Shown here: positions 1 to 5,854 of the stretch, piece by piece
How positions within the stretch are numbered: position 1 is the first letter of the stretch
How the letters are laid out: each line of letters begins with the position of its first letter
IMG/VR virus record: IMGVR_UViG_3300037490_000017
Span: 1-21,913 of that record
Length of the DNA stretch: 21,913 nt
Strand: one strand, 5' to 3'
Origin: a virus
Translations under genes and position numbers: made by a program
The notes under the pieces: generated by a model
Database searches by the model: none
The model's input: the letters and a program-made list of their open reading frames with translations, nothing else
Told to the model about the DNA's origin: nothing

Positions 1-431
1 ACGGTGTCCGTCACCCGCTGGTCTTGTTGGATCGTCCCCGTCACGCTGCTCGCAGTCAGCGTTGTGCCGGCCGATCCGCTACCGTTGTCAATCGTTGCGG
101 TGAAGCTCGCGATGCCGTTGACATAAGGGTTGGAGTTAGGCACGTCTTTCGTGAGCCATTTGTAATGTGCCCAACTCGTCATTGAACCGTTGCGCAGCGC
201 GTTCGTCGTGCCGGTCGTTTGCAACAGGACGTTCTGGTTGACGTATGCGCCCTGGTCGGGATTGAAAAATGGAATGTTGACTGAAAGACCGCTGCCGAGC
301 GTGAAGTTGCCCGCGAAGCCGTTTATAAAGTTGACGGCGGCCTGCGCCAGTTGCGGCGACCAGCCTGCGGCCATGACTTGCCCGACCAAGGCGCCAAGAA
401 ACAGAATGCCGAGTAGTCGAAGTTTTGTCAT
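1..431 (-). CDS. Exported phage protein, 3' end cut by window edge
   Basis: This partial gene has 143 codons and no stop inside the window. The start ATG lies four bases downstream of the previous stop. The N-terminus (MTKLRLLGILFLGALVGQVMA) is a typical Sec signal peptide: basic n-region, hydrophobic core of about 14 residues, and a V-M-A cleavage site near residue 21. The mature part is rich in Gly, Ser, Thr and Asn. Its visible end has a stretch of the type GTTLTASSVTGTIQQDQ, which resembles the repeated beta-strand motifs (T-V-T-S-G-T-I-x-V-G-Q) seen in phage tail and surface proteins. The function is not known; an exported beta-rich appendage or surface protein is my inference. It is the sixth consecutive gene here with an exported N-terminus. 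Confidence 0.72.
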   Translation of the reverse strand, partial: MTKLRLLGILFLGALVGQVMAAGWSPQLAQAAVNFINGFAGNFTLGSGLSVNIPFFNPDQGAYVNQNVLLQTTGTTNALRNGSMTSWAHYKWLTKDVPNSNPYVNGIASFTATIDNGSGSAGTTLTASSVTGTIQQDQRVTDT

Positions 432-435
432 CTAA

Positions 436-1515
436 CTATCCAGTGGGTGTGACGACGATTATGCCATTTGCTCCTGACCCGCCCGCATTGGTAGCCCCGG
501 TGAACCCACCGCCACCGCCGCCTGCTCCATAGTTGCCGCCGTTCCCACCTGGGGCGTCAGTGACAGAGGTCGGACCGGCGCCGCCGCCACCGCCACCGCC
601 GGAACCGTGGGAGGCATCAAAATCAACCCCGGCACCACCAGCGCACGCTGGCCCCATATTGCTGACACCAGAGTTAGCAGCACCACCGCCGCCCGATCCA
701 TGTGATCCAGCAGTGCAAACTGAAACGTTTGACACACCACCCAACCCGCCTGCCGTACTATCTTGAGCCGTGCCGCCGTTACCGCCACCATTCGCAACAG
801 AATCCGCTCCGTTACCACCGCCGCCATTGCCCCCACCGCCGCCGCCGCCGTTTTGAACACCCGCACCGGAAGCCCCGCCATGCCCGCCAGCTCCGTTCGG
901 ACCGGCCGCACCGCCGCCGCCGCCCGCTCCATTTGCTACTTGCGTCTGCGCGCCGCCGGCACCACCAGCATTCTTGGTAGAGCCAACCGCGCCCGTGGTA
1001 GACCCGCCCGCCGCCGTCGATGTTGATCCCACGCCCCCAGCGCCGCCGTTCGATCCGACGACAACTGCCGTGCCTCCGATTGTCGCGCAGTTGGTTGTGG
1101 CGTTGCACAGCCAAGTATTGCCGCCCGCAACACCGGGGCTCCCGTTCGCGCCGCCGGTTCCGATGTTGATCCCGATAGTGCCGGACAAAGAAAGTCCGGT
1201 GGCTTTGGAATATCCGCCCCCGCCGCCTCCAGCACCGATTACGGTTCCGGTCGCATTCGCGCCGCCACCACCCCCGGCGATGGTTTCGGCAGTAAAGACC
1301 GAGCAGTTTGGAAAATCGACCGTGAGGTTGATCGTAGTCGTGGCAGTGTTAGTGTAAAATGCTGCTGTGCCCGCGGAAGCACAACTGCCCCCACCACTCG
1401 GCGCCGTGATGCTGCAAAACCCCGCCGCGCAGCCGTTGAACTGCGCCCATGAGGCGAGCGGCAGGCCAACGCAAATGCCGGCAAGCGCCGCGAGAACAAC
1501 AACCCACCGTTTCAT
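436..1515 (-). CDS. Exported glycine-rich protein (phage Gly-rich appendage-type domain)
   Basis: The product is 359 aa. Residues 1-24 form a signal peptide (MKRWVVVLAALAGICVGLPLASWA) with an S-W-A cleavage site. Residues about 28-75 contain several Cys and a Thr/Val strand region. From about residue 80 to 345 the protein is dominated by Gly runs (GGGGGG) with Ala, Asn and Ser, and it ends in GANGIIVVTPTG. That ending matches the closing strand (G-x-x-G-x-I-I-V) of the glycine-rich domain common in phage tail appendage proteins. That family usually lacks a signal peptide, so export is unusual. The start overlaps the upstream stop as ATGA. The opposite strand is GC-rich and open in other frames, but those frames look like compositional shadows. 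The role is unknown; a secreted or virion surface adhesin-like protein is plausible. Confidence 0.8.
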   Translation of the reverse strand: MKRWVVVLAALAGICVGLPLASWAQFNGCAAGFCSITAPSGGGSCASAGTAAFYTNTATTTINLTVDFPNCSVFTAETIAGGGGGANATGTVIGAGGGGGGYSKATGLSLSGTIGINIGTGGANGSPGVAGGNTWLCNATTNCATIGGTAVVVGSNGGAGGVGSTSTAAGGSTTGAVGSTKNAGGAGGAQTQVANGAGGGGGAAGPNGAGGHGGASGAGVQNGGGGGGGNGGGGNGADSVANGGGNGGTAQDSTAGGLGGVSNVSVCTAGSHGSGGGGAANSGVSNMGPACAGGAGVDFDASHGSGGGGGGGAGPTSVTDAPGGNGGNYGAGGGGGGFTGATNAGGSGANGIIVVTPTG

Positions 1516-1985
1516 GTGAGGTCATTCCCGATCAGATAGAGATCACACGTCGCGGCCGTGCCCTGCCCGGTCGTCAGCGAGAGATACACCGTGTTGACCG
1601 TATAGCGTGTAGTTGCGATGTTCGCCGCCAAGGTCAGCCCGAGCACGATCGTCGCCCCGGTCAGCGCGGTATAAATCTGCGCCGCTGCAACGAGTGCCGT
1701 GCCGCCCTTGCTGACCGCCGGATAGACACCGCCCGCTGCGAGCGTCAGCGAAGCCGAGCAATTGGTGACGATGATCGAAGTCGGCACCCATGCGGTCACA
1801 CCGGCCGGAATGGTGCAGGCTTGATCCGTGGTGACATTAAAGTTGGCGGCGCGGATCGAGCATAGGACGCGCGTGGCGCCTGCCGCCGTGTTATTGATCG
1901 TGACAGCGCCGCCGCTGCCAAACCCGGCTATAGCCTGCGAACATGCCAGCCAAGCCGCACAAAAGAATGCAAGAACTCGGCGCAT
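1512..1985 (-). CDS. Exported small beta-rich protein, function unknown
   Basis: I chose the ATG at 1985, giving 157 aa. It falls four bases after the upstream stop, follows a GGTG-type ribosome site, and exposes a clean signal peptide (MRRVLAFFCAAWLACSQAIA). A start 48 bases further upstream would bury that signal behind a polar extension. The mature protein is rich in Thr, Ala, Val and Ile with four spaced Cys, suggesting an all-beta fold possibly stabilised by disulphides, which fits an oxidising extracytoplasmic location. The pattern of short strands (VLCSIRAANFNVT, TIVLGLTLAANI) resembles small phage decoration-type proteins but I do not recognise a named family. It overlaps the next gene by ATGA, suggesting translational coupling within the exported-protein cluster. 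Confidence 0.75.
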   Translation of the reverse strand: MRRVLAFFCAAWLACSQAIAGFGSGGAVTINNTAAGATRVLCSIRAANFNVTTDQACTIPAGVTAWVPTSIIVTNCSASLTLAAGGVYPAVSKGGTALVAAAQIYTALTGATIVLGLTLAANIATTRYTVNTVYLSLTTGQGTAATCDLYLIGNDLT

Positions 1986-1989
1986 GGCA

Positions 1990-2847
1990 TCACCAATATG
2001 TGCAGGAGAACTTGTGCCCGGTCGTCGCGGCAATGACCGACAGGGCCGTATTCATGCCGAAGCCGAGGGGCGTCGTGAAACTCGATAGGCCGGCAAATGT
2101 CGTCGCTGTCGGAGCGGCCAGAGGGTAGGACGCGGCGGTTGAAGCAGCGGCCGTGGTGGTGAAAGAAATCCATAACGGCTCACCGGAGCCCGCCGACGTG
2201 TCAATGTTGGCGATGGTGAATCCATGGATCGTCGCCGTTGCCGCGATGGCATTCTGCGCCGTGCCGCCTGATGTGATCGTACTGGAACAATTGGTCGGGG
2301 TGACATTGACATTGCCGGTGACGGTTCCGATCGCGGCAGTGCCGGCCGCTAGACCGACCGTTCCCCCGCTTGAGCCCATAGCACCCGTTGGCAGCGGCAA
2401 CGATGCCGCGCTTATCGGAATCACCGTTCCAGAGGCAATACCTTGGACCGTTACCACCTCGGCCGATGCCGTTCCGGCCGTGCCCACACCCGCGCCAGCA
2501 ACGGTCGAACCCGTGCCCGAGTTTTTCGAGACGGCGACGGGCGCCGCAGATGCGGCGACGGCCTGCCCGTTGGGATTAAGCGTTCCCGATGCAAGGTTGA
2601 CTGTTTGGTGTCCGCTACTATCCACCGCCGCGCATTGCGACGGCATCGTCGGATCGCATAGAAGTAGTTGCATGTAATGCACGGAGGCGACGACGATAGA
2701 CCCGAACGTCGTTCCGCTTCCTTGGGTCAACGTATAGTTGGCAAACGCCCATATTCCGCCGACCATCACGACAAGCAGAGTGCCGCGGAATATCGTTCCG
2801 AAACACCATAGCAGGGTGCGCAGCAGGAACATCGCCGTGCGTTTCAT
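1990..2847 (-). CDS. Phage structural-type protein with N-terminal membrane segment
   Basis: The product is 285 aa. Residues 8-36 are a long hydrophobic stretch ending in A-F-A followed by N, so it may be a membrane anchor or an unusually long signal peptide. After a short Cys-containing region (CDPTMPSQC), the chain contains motifs known from phage structural proteins: VVTVQGIASGTVIPI around the middle, and a C-terminal domain with HGFTIANID, EPLWISF, SYPLAAPTA and ALSVIAATTGHKFSC. That C-terminal pattern recurs in phage virion-associated beta-sandwich proteins that normally have no export signal. The start overlaps the stop of the 57 aa upstream gene as ATGA. I infer an exported or membrane-tethered relative of a virion protein; its role is unknown. 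Confidence 0.75.
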   Translation of the reverse strand: MKRTAMFLLRTLLWCFGTIFRGTLLVVMVGGIWAFANYTLTQGSGTTFGSIVVASVHYMQLLLCDPTMPSQCAAVDSSGHQTVNLASGTLNPNGQAVAASAAPVAVSKNSGTGSTVAGAGVGTAGTASAEVVTVQGIASGTVIPISAASLPLPTGAMGSSGGTVGLAAGTAAIGTVTGNVNVTPTNCSSTITSGGTAQNAIAATATIHGFTIANIDTSAGSGEPLWISFTTTAAASTAASYPLAAPTATTFAGLSSFTTPLGFGMNTALSVIAATTGHKFSCTYW

Positions 2848-3017
2848 TGTCCTAATCCTGTGACGCAGCCGAGGGAGAGATCGAGAACACCGTTACAGGT
2901 CGAAGGTGTGGATACCCCATGTCCCGATTGATTAGCCGGCGACATGATCCACACTTGCGCGTCCGCTCCCGCTGCCAGGGCGAGGGCCAAGAGCAGGATG
3001 AAGACGGTCACGCGCAT
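2844..3017 (-). CDS. 57 aa exported mini-protein with two cysteines
   Basis: This short gene was read directly from the sequence. It encodes a textbook signal peptide (MRVTVFILLLALALAAGADA, A-D-A cleavage) followed by a mature peptide of only about 37 residues, starting QVWIMSPANQSG and ending CNGVLDLSLGCVTGLGQ. The two Cys are ten residues apart and could form a disulphide loop. The stop overlaps the next start as ATGA, and the start lies three bases after the upstream stop, so it sits cleanly in the operon. The C-terminal C-x-G-x-L-D-L-S-L-G-C pattern looks conserved-phage-like to me, but I cannot name a family. A secreted peptide or small accessory component is inferred. Confidence 0.68.
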   Translation of the reverse strand: MRVTVFILLLALALAAGADAQVWIMSPANQSGHGVSTPSTCNGVLDLSLGCVTGLGQ

Positions 3018-3020
3018 GGG

Positions 3021-3485
3021 CTAGAATTGCGTGTAGTAGACGATCGCCTGGACGGCAACGCCGGCATTCGTCAGGATGCACAGGTCATTCGAGACTGGAA
3101 CCGGGGGAATCCCGGTATAGACCGGGAGATGGTCGACCTCGGCGATCTGCGCCGTGAGTGCAAAGGGCGGCGTGACCGCCGCCTGTCCCGTCCCGCAAGT
3201 TCCGCCCGTGCCGTAGACGAAACTGACACTGACCGTCCCGCCGGGCATGATGTTCCAGCCGCAGACGTAGATCTGCTTGGTCGCCGTGCCGGTTACGAGC
3301 TTCGTCGCGCCGTTGGTCGAGGCATTGTACTGCGCCGACTGATTGCAGCCGAACATCTGGTTTGGCGACACGCCCTGGGCGTGAGCAGGAAACAGCCCTA
3401 CCCACCACAAGAACCAAACGACGATGACAGCCGTTATCCAGTCGCCAGCATTGGGCTTGTAAGTCAGCCAAATCGGGCGCCGCAT
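3021..3485 (-). CDS. Exported small Cys-containing beta-rich protein
   Basis: I chose the ATG at 3485, five bases after the upstream stop, giving 154 aa. The much longer open frame reaching to about 4031 overlaps the real 207 aa gene and reads as an Arg/Gly-rich shadow there. Residues 17-36 are strongly hydrophobic and Trp-rich (ITAVIVVWFLWWVGLF) and end in A-H-A followed by Q, a good signal peptidase site. The mature part has four Cys and beta-type segments such as KQIYVCGWNIMPGGTVSVSF, CGTGQAAVTPPFALTAQ and VAVQAIVYYTQF. The layout resembles small phage-encoded beta-sandwich proteins, without a family I can name. It is the first of six exported-protein genes in transcription order. Confidence 0.75.
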   Translation of the reverse strand: MRRPIWLTYKPNAGDWITAVIVVWFLWWVGLFPAHAQGVSPNQMFGCNQSAQYNASTNGATKLVTGTATKQIYVCGWNIMPGGTVSVSFVYGTGGTCGTGQAAVTPPFALTAQIAEVDHLPVYTGIPPVPVSNDLCILTNAGVAVQAIVYYTQF

Positions 3486-3490
3486 CGTCG

Positions 3491-4114
3491 TCACCCCGCC
3501 TGCGGCCCTTGGGCCGGATTCGTGCCCGGCATGGGCGGGCGCACGGCTTGGCGCCGCTGGCGCTCGGCCTGCGCCCGTTGCGACGGGATATGATCGGCGA
3601 CGCCCTGCGGCGGTGGACGTGACGGATCGGGCGGCAACGCCATGCCGCTGACCGCGGCGTTCGGCATGATCGGCAGCGACGACGGCGCCGGACGATAGCC
3701 GACCGCGGGGCCGACCGGGCGCGCTCCCGCGCGCTTTTCCTTGATGGCGACGGCATACTTCATGACGGCGCCCCACCACTGATCGTGCGGGATTTCCGGT
3801 TCGCCCTCGCGCGGACGCATGGCAAAGGCGGCTTCCGAGATTTCTTCCTGGCTCAAGCCCTTCCCAACCACGGGAAGCGAATTGATCCACATCTCGAACC
3901 GTTCGCCGGCCGCCTTGTTCAACGGCTGCATCTGGTGGTTCGGCGTCATCTCCGTGGTGATGACCTGGCCTTCCTCGACCAAGGTCGGCCCGGTCAAGCC
4001 GGTTTCCGCCGAGCGCATGACCATGTGACAATCGGCGAGCAAGAGATAGGTCGGGCCATGGACGTGCTGGCCGTCCTCGGTCACGTAGGATTCGGGAAGC
4101 TGATGGTTATTCAT
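3491..4114 (-). CDS. Unknown 207 aa protein downstream of capsid genes
   Basis: The product is cytoplasmic-looking, with no signal or membrane segment. Residues 1-115 look folded (EDGQHVHGPTYLLLADCH, then a Trp-containing region with PHDQWWGAVMKYAVAI). The C-terminal third is Pro/Arg/Gln-rich and probably disordered. The ATG at 4114 is preceded by a GAGGT ribosome site. It is the first gene after the tandem hairpins that follow the cement gene and is transcribed into the exported-protein cluster. By position it could be a head-completion or tail-adaptor protein, but no motif supports that. Confidence 0.75.
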   Translation of the reverse strand: MNNHQLPESYVTEDGQHVHGPTYLLLADCHMVMRSAETGLTGPTLVEEGQVITTEMTPNHQMQPLNKAAGERFEMWINSLPVVGKGLSQEEISEAAFAMRPREGEPEIPHDQWWGAVMKYAVAIKEKRAGARPVGPAVGYRPAPSSLPIMPNAAVSGMALPPDPSRPPPQGVADHIPSQRAQAERQRRQAVRPPMPGTNPAQGPQAG

Positions 4115-4219: not shown

Positions 4220-4780
4220 TTACGACGCAACCTTGTAGTTCGAGCCGTACTGGTTGAGCGTCGATTGGGCGTCTTCGTCTCCCAGAGTAACGTCGGCAGT
4301 AAGCGTGCCGGCGGTCGCGCTCGACCCGGTGATGGCGTAGTGCAGGTCGATGAACCGCGGCAAGCCCGCCCCGGTCTTTCGCATCGGCCAGTCGAATGAG
4401 GCGATGCGCGTGTTCGCGGTCAGAAGCGCGAGCGCGATCGTGTCGGTCTGCATGTAGATGACGAAGGCCAGATCCGAACGATTGCCCGAGGCGTGCGCGG
4501 TCGCGTTTTCCGGCGCGCCGCGGAACTGCACTTGGATCGTGGTCACGGTCAGGAACGCCGTGCCCGTATTGACCTGCACGCGCGGCGTGCCCGGACCCTT
4601 GCCGATGCCAAGGTCTTCCCCGAAGAACGTCTGGTTCACGGAGAAGATATTGCTGGGCGACGGCGTGAAGGTCGTCGTGCCCATCGAACCGTTGAGCTGG
4701 TCGTAGAAGTTCGTCGAGTCCGCCGCGGCGGTCAAAGCCTGGGCGTTCGAGAACTGGAGGTTTGCATCAAGCATACCCAT
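4220..4780 (-). CDS. Capsid cement/decoration protein, Bbp16-like
   Basis: The product is 186 aa. It starts MGMLDANLQFSNAQALTAAA, close to the opening of the Bordetella phage BPP-1 cement protein Bbp16 family (D-x-x-L-x-F-S-x-A-Q-A-x-T). It also has the family-like C-terminal segment around LPRFIDLHYAITGSSATAG. In BPP-1 this protein sits on the outer capsid surface and clamps neighbouring capsomers. The gene lies immediately downstream of the major capsid gene, as expected, behind a GGAG ribosome site seven bases from the ATG. A second in-frame ATG two codons later is possible. The family call is from recall of motifs, so a structure comparison would firm it up. Confidence 0.82.
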   Translation of the reverse strand: MGMLDANLQFSNAQALTAAADSTNFYDQLNGSMGTTTFTPSPSNIFSVNQTFFGEDLGIGKGPGTPRVQVNTGTAFLTVTTIQVQFRGAPENATAHASGNRSDLAFVIYMQTDTIALALLTANTRIASFDWPMRKTGAGLPRFIDLHYAITGSSATAGTLTADVTLGDEDAQSTLNQYGSNYKVAS

Positions 4781-4806: not shown

Positions 4807-4826
4807 CTAAGCTATTGATAGCTCAG
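4807..4826 (-). repeat. Short inverted repeat spanning the major capsid stop codon
   Basis: CTAAGCTAT and ATAGCTCAG flank a 2-base centre; on the transcript the arms pair over 9 bp with one G-U pair, and the innermost pairs would open to form the loop. It includes the major capsid stop codon and precedes the GGAG site of the cement gene. It may tune capsid-to-cement translation or mRNA stability. Confidence 0.4.
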
Positions 4827-5854
4827 GTAATTCGACTCTCAGTGTCCAGAATTTGGTCTGTGACCCCGATGGGTATGTTGCGGAAGTTCACGATCGGGCG
4901 CCCGGCGTAGTCCTCCGGCCGGAGCAGCACGTTCTTGTCGCGGATGGCCTGAATGTCGAGGTATTCGCGCCAGGTACGGTCGCCGTACCAGTTGAGCCGC
5001 ACCGGAGGCGCGACGCGATCGGGAGCGTCGGTCTTGGTGATGCCCGATACCATGCGGCCGGCGGTCGGCAGGCGAACGACGGCCTTCGACATGATCGCGA
5101 ACAGGTCGGGCGGCGTTGCACCCGCGAGGCCCGCCGTGGTCGTGTCGATGTTGCACATGCGAACGACATAGCGCCAGTCCTCGATGCACAACCCGGCGTT
5201 CCACGAGAAATACGACGTGTATGCCTCATAGCGCCGGCTGGAGCTATCGTAGGCCGGAACCGTGTCGCCCTTGTTCTCGAACGTCAGGCCGGCTTTCGTT
5301 CCCTTGGGGAAGATGCCGTAGGCGGTCTGATCGCCCCAGCCGATGAGCCAAGCGGAAGTGTTCGACGATCCGGTGCCGCCGCAGTCGAAGACGTTGACGC
5401 CGTTCTGCGCCGCCGCGATGGCCGCGAAATAGGTGGCAAAGCCCGACATCTGTTCCGGCGTCGTCCACGAGTTGCCGTAGATGTAGAAGCCGGACATCTG
5501 TTGCGACATGCCCTCCATGTGGGCAACGTCTTCCTTTTCCCGATTTGCGGCGGTGTTACCGCCCAAATCGGCCAGCTTCTTGTCGATCTGCGAATAGGCG
5601 TCGAGCATCATCATGCCGAACGTGAGCTGCGCCGCAGACGACTTGGTGTAGGCAACGCCCTGGTTGAACCGGCGGGCGGTGCCCTTCGGCAAGGCGGTGC
5701 GCAAAGTAACCACATGCCCCGTCGTCAGGTTGCCCTCGACCCACGGGATATGATCGATGATTTCGTTGCACTGGGAGAGCAATTCCGCCATGTCGGCGAT
5801 CTTGCCCGAAGGATCCATGCGCCGACCGATATCGGCGAGGGTCAAGGAAGCCAT
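4823..5854 (-). CDS. Major capsid protein (BPP-1 type, HK97-like fold expected)
   Basis: The product is 343 aa, the usual size for this family. The N-terminal part reads LTLADIGRRMDPSGK, AELLSQCNEIIDHIPWVEGN and TTGHVVTLRTALP. This is followed by RRFNQGVAYTKSS, DKKLADLGGNTAANR, FDCGGTGSSNTSAWLIGWG and GIFPKGTKAGL. These are the characteristic segments of the major capsid protein group that includes BPP-1 Bbp17. It assembles the icosahedral shell around the scaffold. The gene sits between the scaffold and the cement gene, and an AGGGG element lies about 10 bases before the ATG. Unlike HK97 there is no obvious N-terminal delta domain, in keeping with a separate scaffold gene. Confidence 0.9.
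   Translation of the reverse strand: MASLTLADIGRRMDPSGKIADMAELLSQCNEIIDHIPWVEGNLTTGHVVTLRTALPKGTARRFNQGVAYTKSSAAQLTFGMMMLDAYSQIDKKLADLGGNTAANREKEDVAHMEGMSQQMSGFYIYGNSWTTPEQMSGFATYFAAIAAAQNGVNVFDCGGTGSSNTSAWLIGWGDQTAYGIFPKGTKAGLTFENKGDTVPAYDSSSRRYEAYTSYFSWNAGLCIEDWRYVVRMCNIDTTTAGLAGATPPDLFAIMSKAVVRLPTAGRMVSGITKTDAPDRVAPPVRLNWYGDRTWREYLDIQAIRDKNVLLRPEDYAGRPIVNFRNIPIGVTDQILDTESRIT

Follow-up and report, generated by a model that had tools for sequence, protein, structure and literature searches.

A cassette of candidate Sec-exported virion appendages in the morphogenesis operon of a soil podovirus

Six consecutive genes at the left edge of the window—the whole 21,913-bp IMG/VR fragment analysed here—encode proteins predicted, with good support, to be exported by the Sec pathway, and the reading preferred for them, at a probability of about one half, is that they are virion appendages that would leave the cytoplasm through Sec, become oxidised once in the periplasm and attach to virions at lysis. 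At 100% identity, the window corresponds to positions 26557-48469 of G001, a complete contig of 64,450 bp that has a terminal repeat. Since a GP7 capsid, a Bbp16-type cement and a Head-tail_con portal (the latter within the window; E 1.8e-119) are all encoded, the phage is assigned to the BPP-1/epsilon15-type podoviruses. It is a soil phage, and the trait described below is present also in many of its relatives. A prophage or host-gene origin was rejected, scans of 84,980 species genomes with gene D and with the tailspike anchor having found no relative of either.

The six minus-strand ORFs, running from position 3485 down to the left window edge, were confirmed, and the cleavage sites predicted for them are those that the sequence-only reading had listed (VMA, SWA, AIA, AFA, ADA and AHA; Table 1). 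The cassette is flanked by the cement/Bbp15 position on one side and by the tail adaptor gene (phrog_394) on the other, within a morphogenesis operon laid out as in BPP-1 and BcepC6B. The podoviruses of the BPP-1/BcepC6B/epsilon15 type have the capsid, Bbp16-type cement, portal, tail adaptor and Bbp9 anchor as well as the gene order in common with the window phage, but they are without an exported cassette between cement and adaptor; in BcepC6B a further likeness is seen in gp19, itself a signal-peptide protein. Concerning the six cassette proteins, PHROGs and Pfam gave no significant match for any of them, and tblastn against annotated phages returned no match for gene C and a best value of only E 0.07 for gene D.

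Table 1 Coordinates of the cassette genes, their neighbours and related loci (the slash marks the predicted cleavage site)
Feature	Position (strand)	Length	Mature Cys	Description
Gene A	3021..3485 (-)	154 aa	4	Signal peptide AHA/QGV; predicted jelly-roll domain with the 4 Cys
Gene B	2844..3017 (-)	57 aa	2	Signal peptide ADA/QVW; mature peptide of ~37 residues, one Cys pair around LDLS
Gene C	1990..2847 (-)	285 aa	4	Signal peptide AFA/NYT; mosaic; C-terminal domain (1990-2310) with Cys pair
Gene D	1512..1985 (-)	157 aa	4	Signal peptide AIA/GFG; beta-sandwich domain
Gene E	436..1515 (-)	359 aa	8	Signal peptide SWA/QFN; glycine-rich
Gene F	<3-431 (-), cut by window edge	631 aa in G001	16 (full length)	Signal peptide VMA/AGW
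Cassette neighbour in Bbp15 position	3491..4114 (-)			No signal peptide; no family match
Capsid cement protein, Bbp16-type	4220..4780 (-)			phrog_427, E 5.6e-10; Pfam Bbp16 24.5 bits, below the 27.1 cut-off
Major capsid protein, GP7 family	4823..5854 (-)			E 1.1e-99
Class-3 lipase domain gene (G001)	L045:999-1691			28.3 bits (cut-off 22); adjoins GH108 endolysin and putative holin
BcepC6B gp19	L134:20959-22032		4	Signal-peptide 'tail fiber'/structural protein
PBR31 orf035	L298:2932-3741		2	Signal-peptide 'tail fiber'/structural protein
F.NPG proteins	L142 4982-5338; L140 5759-6115; G003_41; G005_19; G006_26	~118 aa		No signal peptide
Proteins with rhizobial-type N-terminus	L044:18515-19366 (G001); L038:1014-1736 (G008); L047:11662-12405 (G002); L051:4777-5514 (G005)			Signal peptide

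Export was assessed by a mechanical rule asking for a basic n-region, a hydrophobic core of 8-18 residues and a small-x-small site, which accepts all six cassette N-termini; in five related reference phages it accepts 5 of 238 N-termini (2.1%), and among 2,153 internal segments it accepts 6 (0.3%). The features of Sec/signal peptidase I substrates—basic n-region, hydrophobic core and AxA-type site—are thus present by this rule and are kept in orthologues; in those of gene D, the signal peptide is 30-45% identical versus 67-85% for the mature part, with the signal-peptide type retained. That the real starts might lie downstream of the hydrophobic segments, a weakness foreseen in the sequence-only reading, is unlikely, and wrong start codons were rejected, because the orthologues keep both the hydrophobic segment and the AxA site. 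Lipoproteins were likewise rejected, none of the six having a lipobox, and no C-terminal membrane anchor or hydrophobic segment was seen in the six proteins.

Within the complete contig the run extends to nine consecutive signal-peptide genes (22102-30041), six of them in the window, and signal peptides are found also on genes 0 and 2, close to the end of the contig. By the strict rule, 12 of the 95 genes of this genome are signal-peptide genes, including a called run of eight (permutation p < 0.0002). The first nine genomes compared have 2-15 such genes each, the longest run being eight, and three further genomes have 4-7; these counts are low estimates, since gene B escaped the gene caller and at least one start (G023_32) was misplaced by it. 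Runs of this kind were found in related and unrelated phages alike. The trait is not confined to a single isolated late cassette, recurring as it does at two sites of the same genome and in unrelated phages. The layout of gene B is repeated in G003_27, G007_66 and G008_33, so that an exported ~57-aa protein with a conserved C...LD(L/F)S..C loop is present in four phages, in or beside the exported cassette.

Disulfide pairing of the exported proteins is the second well-supported prediction, the even parity of their Cys numbers being the pairing expected of an oxidising compartment. Among the proteins of nine genomes that have at least 80 aa and contain Cys—with the mature Cys counted in signal-peptide proteins—the number is even in 61 of 66 signal-peptide proteins (5 odd) versus 120 of 282 others (162 odd), some of the odd counts stemming from misplaced cleavage or membrane proteins. 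At the level of homology clusters, taken over twelve genomes, a majority-even state was found for 33/40 signal-peptide clusters versus 106/239 others (p 6e-6).

The same association is seen within single families occurring in two states, i.e. with and without a signal peptide. Environmental phages often carry the gene D domain (the best 80 of 175 loci were kept), and after removal of near-copies at least two Cys were counted in 15/16 signal-peptide forms versus 3/36 plain forms, one of the latter three (L132) having a signal peptide on inspection; plain forms adjoin major head protein genes (L021, L088). For the gene C domain, the comparison gave 12/12 signal-peptide versus 4/23 plain forms by the rule, and 15/15 versus 1/20 with the N-termini read by eye, three different Cys pairs being placed differently in different clades. 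The gene A domain stands behind a signal peptide in nearly all cases; its pairs are probably C46-C75 and C97-C136, the first being absent together in L240 and L246, where the second stays. It should be pointed out that the trees indicate about three state changes for each of the C and D domains, and the evolutionary association therefore rests on few independent events; with 2-3 independent pairs of joint signal-peptide and Cys gain per domain, significance in a formal sign test is out of reach. Broader support comes from the parity over the 40 clusters.

With regard to the source of the cassette, L265, a locus from a related podovirus, shows the genes for a GP7 capsid and Bbp16 cement followed by one of 207 aa, then a gene-C-type protein (E 8e-13 against gene C), a Gly_rich_2 tail-fibre-type protein and the phrog_394 adaptor. 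Neither the gene-C-type nor the Gly_rich_2 protein has a signal peptide or a cysteine, whereas in the window phage the equivalent slot is occupied by C and the glycine-rich E, each of which has a signal peptide and Cys. The product of gene E resembles phage tail-fibre glycine-rich domains, a likeness that, being one of low complexity, does not establish homology to Gly_rich_2. Judged from these sequence comparisons, an origin of the cassette proteins from virion-side proteins kept cytoplasmic in other phages appears well supported; for genes A, B and F no plain virion homologue, i.e. one free of a signal peptide, was found.

For gene D, the structure model has high confidence over the domain (pLDDT about 95). 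Among PDB entries it matches best, though weakly, the C-terminal fibre fragment of Bdellovibrio Bd2133 (8OND; E 1.4e-3, TM 0.41), with capsid and cement proteins of phages ranking next, and a better match was obtained to predicted phage proteins (E 4e-11); searching the PDB sequences with a gene D profile gave no hit. The model of gene A is jelly-roll-like and less confident. For both models Foldseek gave weak matches (E about 1e-3 to 4e-2) to trimeric cement proteins and jelly-roll tips, represented by phages KHP40, Pam1 and GP4 and by the Sf6 needle knob, which, unlike D and A, are cytoplasmic and without signal peptides. The PDB matches of the two models may serve as leads rather than as proof.

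A link to the virion comes from the tailspike. The product of gene 2 of the contig, outside the window, has a signal peptide followed by the domain that anchors Bbp9/epsilon15-type tailspikes to the virion, and position 2 of the anchor profile aligns to residue 21, exactly at the ANA/T junction, which places the anchor at the N-terminus of the predicted mature protein. The junctions of the exported tailspikes read ANA/TITSS, ARA/TVNSQ and AVA/TINSA, and the starts of the plain ones M/TINNA (G005), M/TVNDQ (G004) and M/TVTSS (BcepC6B), the tailspike of the BPP-1/BcepC6B/epsilon15 type beginning directly with the anchor domain, unlike that of G001. Because the fusion of signal peptide and anchor domain lies precisely at residue 2 of the domain, the predicted cleavage would restore an ordinary tailspike N-terminus. 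The anchor occurs in one copy per genome and is of the exported form in seven of nine genomes; the plain tailspike of the two relatives G004 and G005 counts against the preferred reading.

Among further signal-peptide proteins, one carries the Peptidase_S74 fibre chaperone (29.6 bits, cut-off 22) and others give weaker beta-helix and GDSL-lipase matches. The sequence-only reading was right to see here exported proteins of virion or appendage type, an unusual combination: signal-peptide homologues have the Bbp9/epsilon15 anchor, the S74 chaperone, beta-helix modules and domains encoded beside the major head gene in other phages. The genes for BcepC6B gp19 and its relative PBR31 orf035 directly follow the tailspike/fibre gene and adjoin the holin; the two proteins differ by one Cys pair, lost together. 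The gene of a conserved protein with an F.NPG motif separates that of the exported tailspike from that of the exported fibre protein following it.

Under the preferred reading, fibre, spike and decoration-type phage proteins would be exported by the host Sec pathway, signal peptidase I would remove the signal peptide, and the mature proteins would reach their fold, with intramolecular disulfides, in the periplasm; lysis by holin and endolysin would then mix periplasm and cytoplasm, so that the appendages could dock on finished virions. The benefit might be oxidised, stable adhesins unable to bind surface-glycan precursors in the cytoplasm. Docking at lysis we infer from the tailspike anchor—retained, exactly restored and single-copy—and from the operon context; the timing and the benefit are likewise conjectural. 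A point against it is that large trimeric fibres would need to fold without cytoplasmic helpers. From the roles offered in the sequence-only reading, attachment to virions at lysis emerges as the best supported and that of periplasmic lysis factors as the least, because the lysis genes (putative holin, GH108 endolysin, lipase) are placed elsewhere in the genome than the cassette.

It is rather unlikely, yet deserving of attention, that the exported proteins act instead on the infected cell, as fibre-derived adhesins of the envelope or surface that block receptors (superinfection exclusion) or keep progeny off debris. Signal peptides and Cys pairing, after all, indicate export and not virion binding, and several of these phages encode OMP-like proteins with rhizobial-type N-termini, which brings envelope modification within their repertoire. 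On the other hand, the six proteins have neither a lipobox nor a C-terminal membrane anchor, their genes lie inside the morphogenesis operon, and the tailspike retains its virion anchor, with restored N-terminus, in its only copy. As to the OMP-like proteins themselves, they have signal peptides and the N-terminal pattern AD(L/M)...K..PP; those of G002 and G008 match an outer-membrane beta-barrel family below the cut-off, the latter only just (OMP_b-brl, 28.6 bits versus 28.7). A receptor mask or a surface change is a possible role for them, and their rhizobial-type N-termini hint at an alphaproteobacterial host.

Less probable still is a release of the mature proteins at lysis as adhesins or enzymes—for example depolymerases opening the matrix of neighbours—that never join the virion. 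Other phages are known to make spike proteins in soluble form, and the beta-helix and weak GDSL-lipase matches would suit such a function, but it gives no reason to retain a virion-anchor domain or the exact junction, and export would be needless, since lysis frees cytoplasmic proteins as well. Finally, the long n-regions and strong hydrophobic cores of genes A and C could be taken for membrane tethers or assembly signals of proteins assembled in the cytoplasm, i.e. not for working signal peptides, which is very improbable in view of the even Cys parity, the convergent Cys pairs that go with the signal peptide and the AxA sites at the exact tailspike junction.

Filamentous phages offer familiar examples of virion proteins that a signal peptide sends to the periplasm, where they are oxidised; these coat proteins (e.g. 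pIII) are membrane-anchored and assembled during extrusion. The likeness is confined to export and oxidation: the window phage is tailed and has a holin and an endolysin, and the six proteins, ending without a hydrophobic segment, do not fit anchoring and extrusion of the filamentous type. The mosaic adhesive trimer (MAT) fibres of Bdellovibrio bacteriovorus are phage-fibre-like, too, with a signal peptide followed by a conserved MAT N-domain of ~130 aa and with mosaic tips, some carrying S74 (PMC10769870). They share with the cassette the combination of phage-fibre-like protein and signal peptide, Bd2133 being the weak best PDB match of gene D; they are, however, prey-entry fibres of a predatory bacterium encoded on its chromosome, whereas the cassette is encoded by a lytic phage inside its virion operon. 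The use of Sec by fibre-like or virion proteins is therefore already known, and the tailed-phage case is apparently undescribed, searches of the openly accessible literature having turned up no account of tailed phages that send appendages through Sec.

Tailed phages are held to assemble wholly in the cytoplasm. More tentatively than for the window phage itself, many of them may build a part of the virion outside it, having gained disulfides and a signal peptide placed precisely where a virion-binding domain begins, with the parts joining when the cell opens and with repeated switching between the cytoplasmic and the exported state. If this is true, appendages finished in the periplasm and added at lysis would change the models of late assembly and would explain why fibres of soil phages are rich in disulfides, and parts that bind receptors may have been overlooked where a signal peptide was counted against a virion role. 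A signal peptide together with an even cysteine count offers a simple genomic test for further cases, and the cultured phages BcepC6B and PBR31, each carrying a single member, make the idea of exported appendages testable now.
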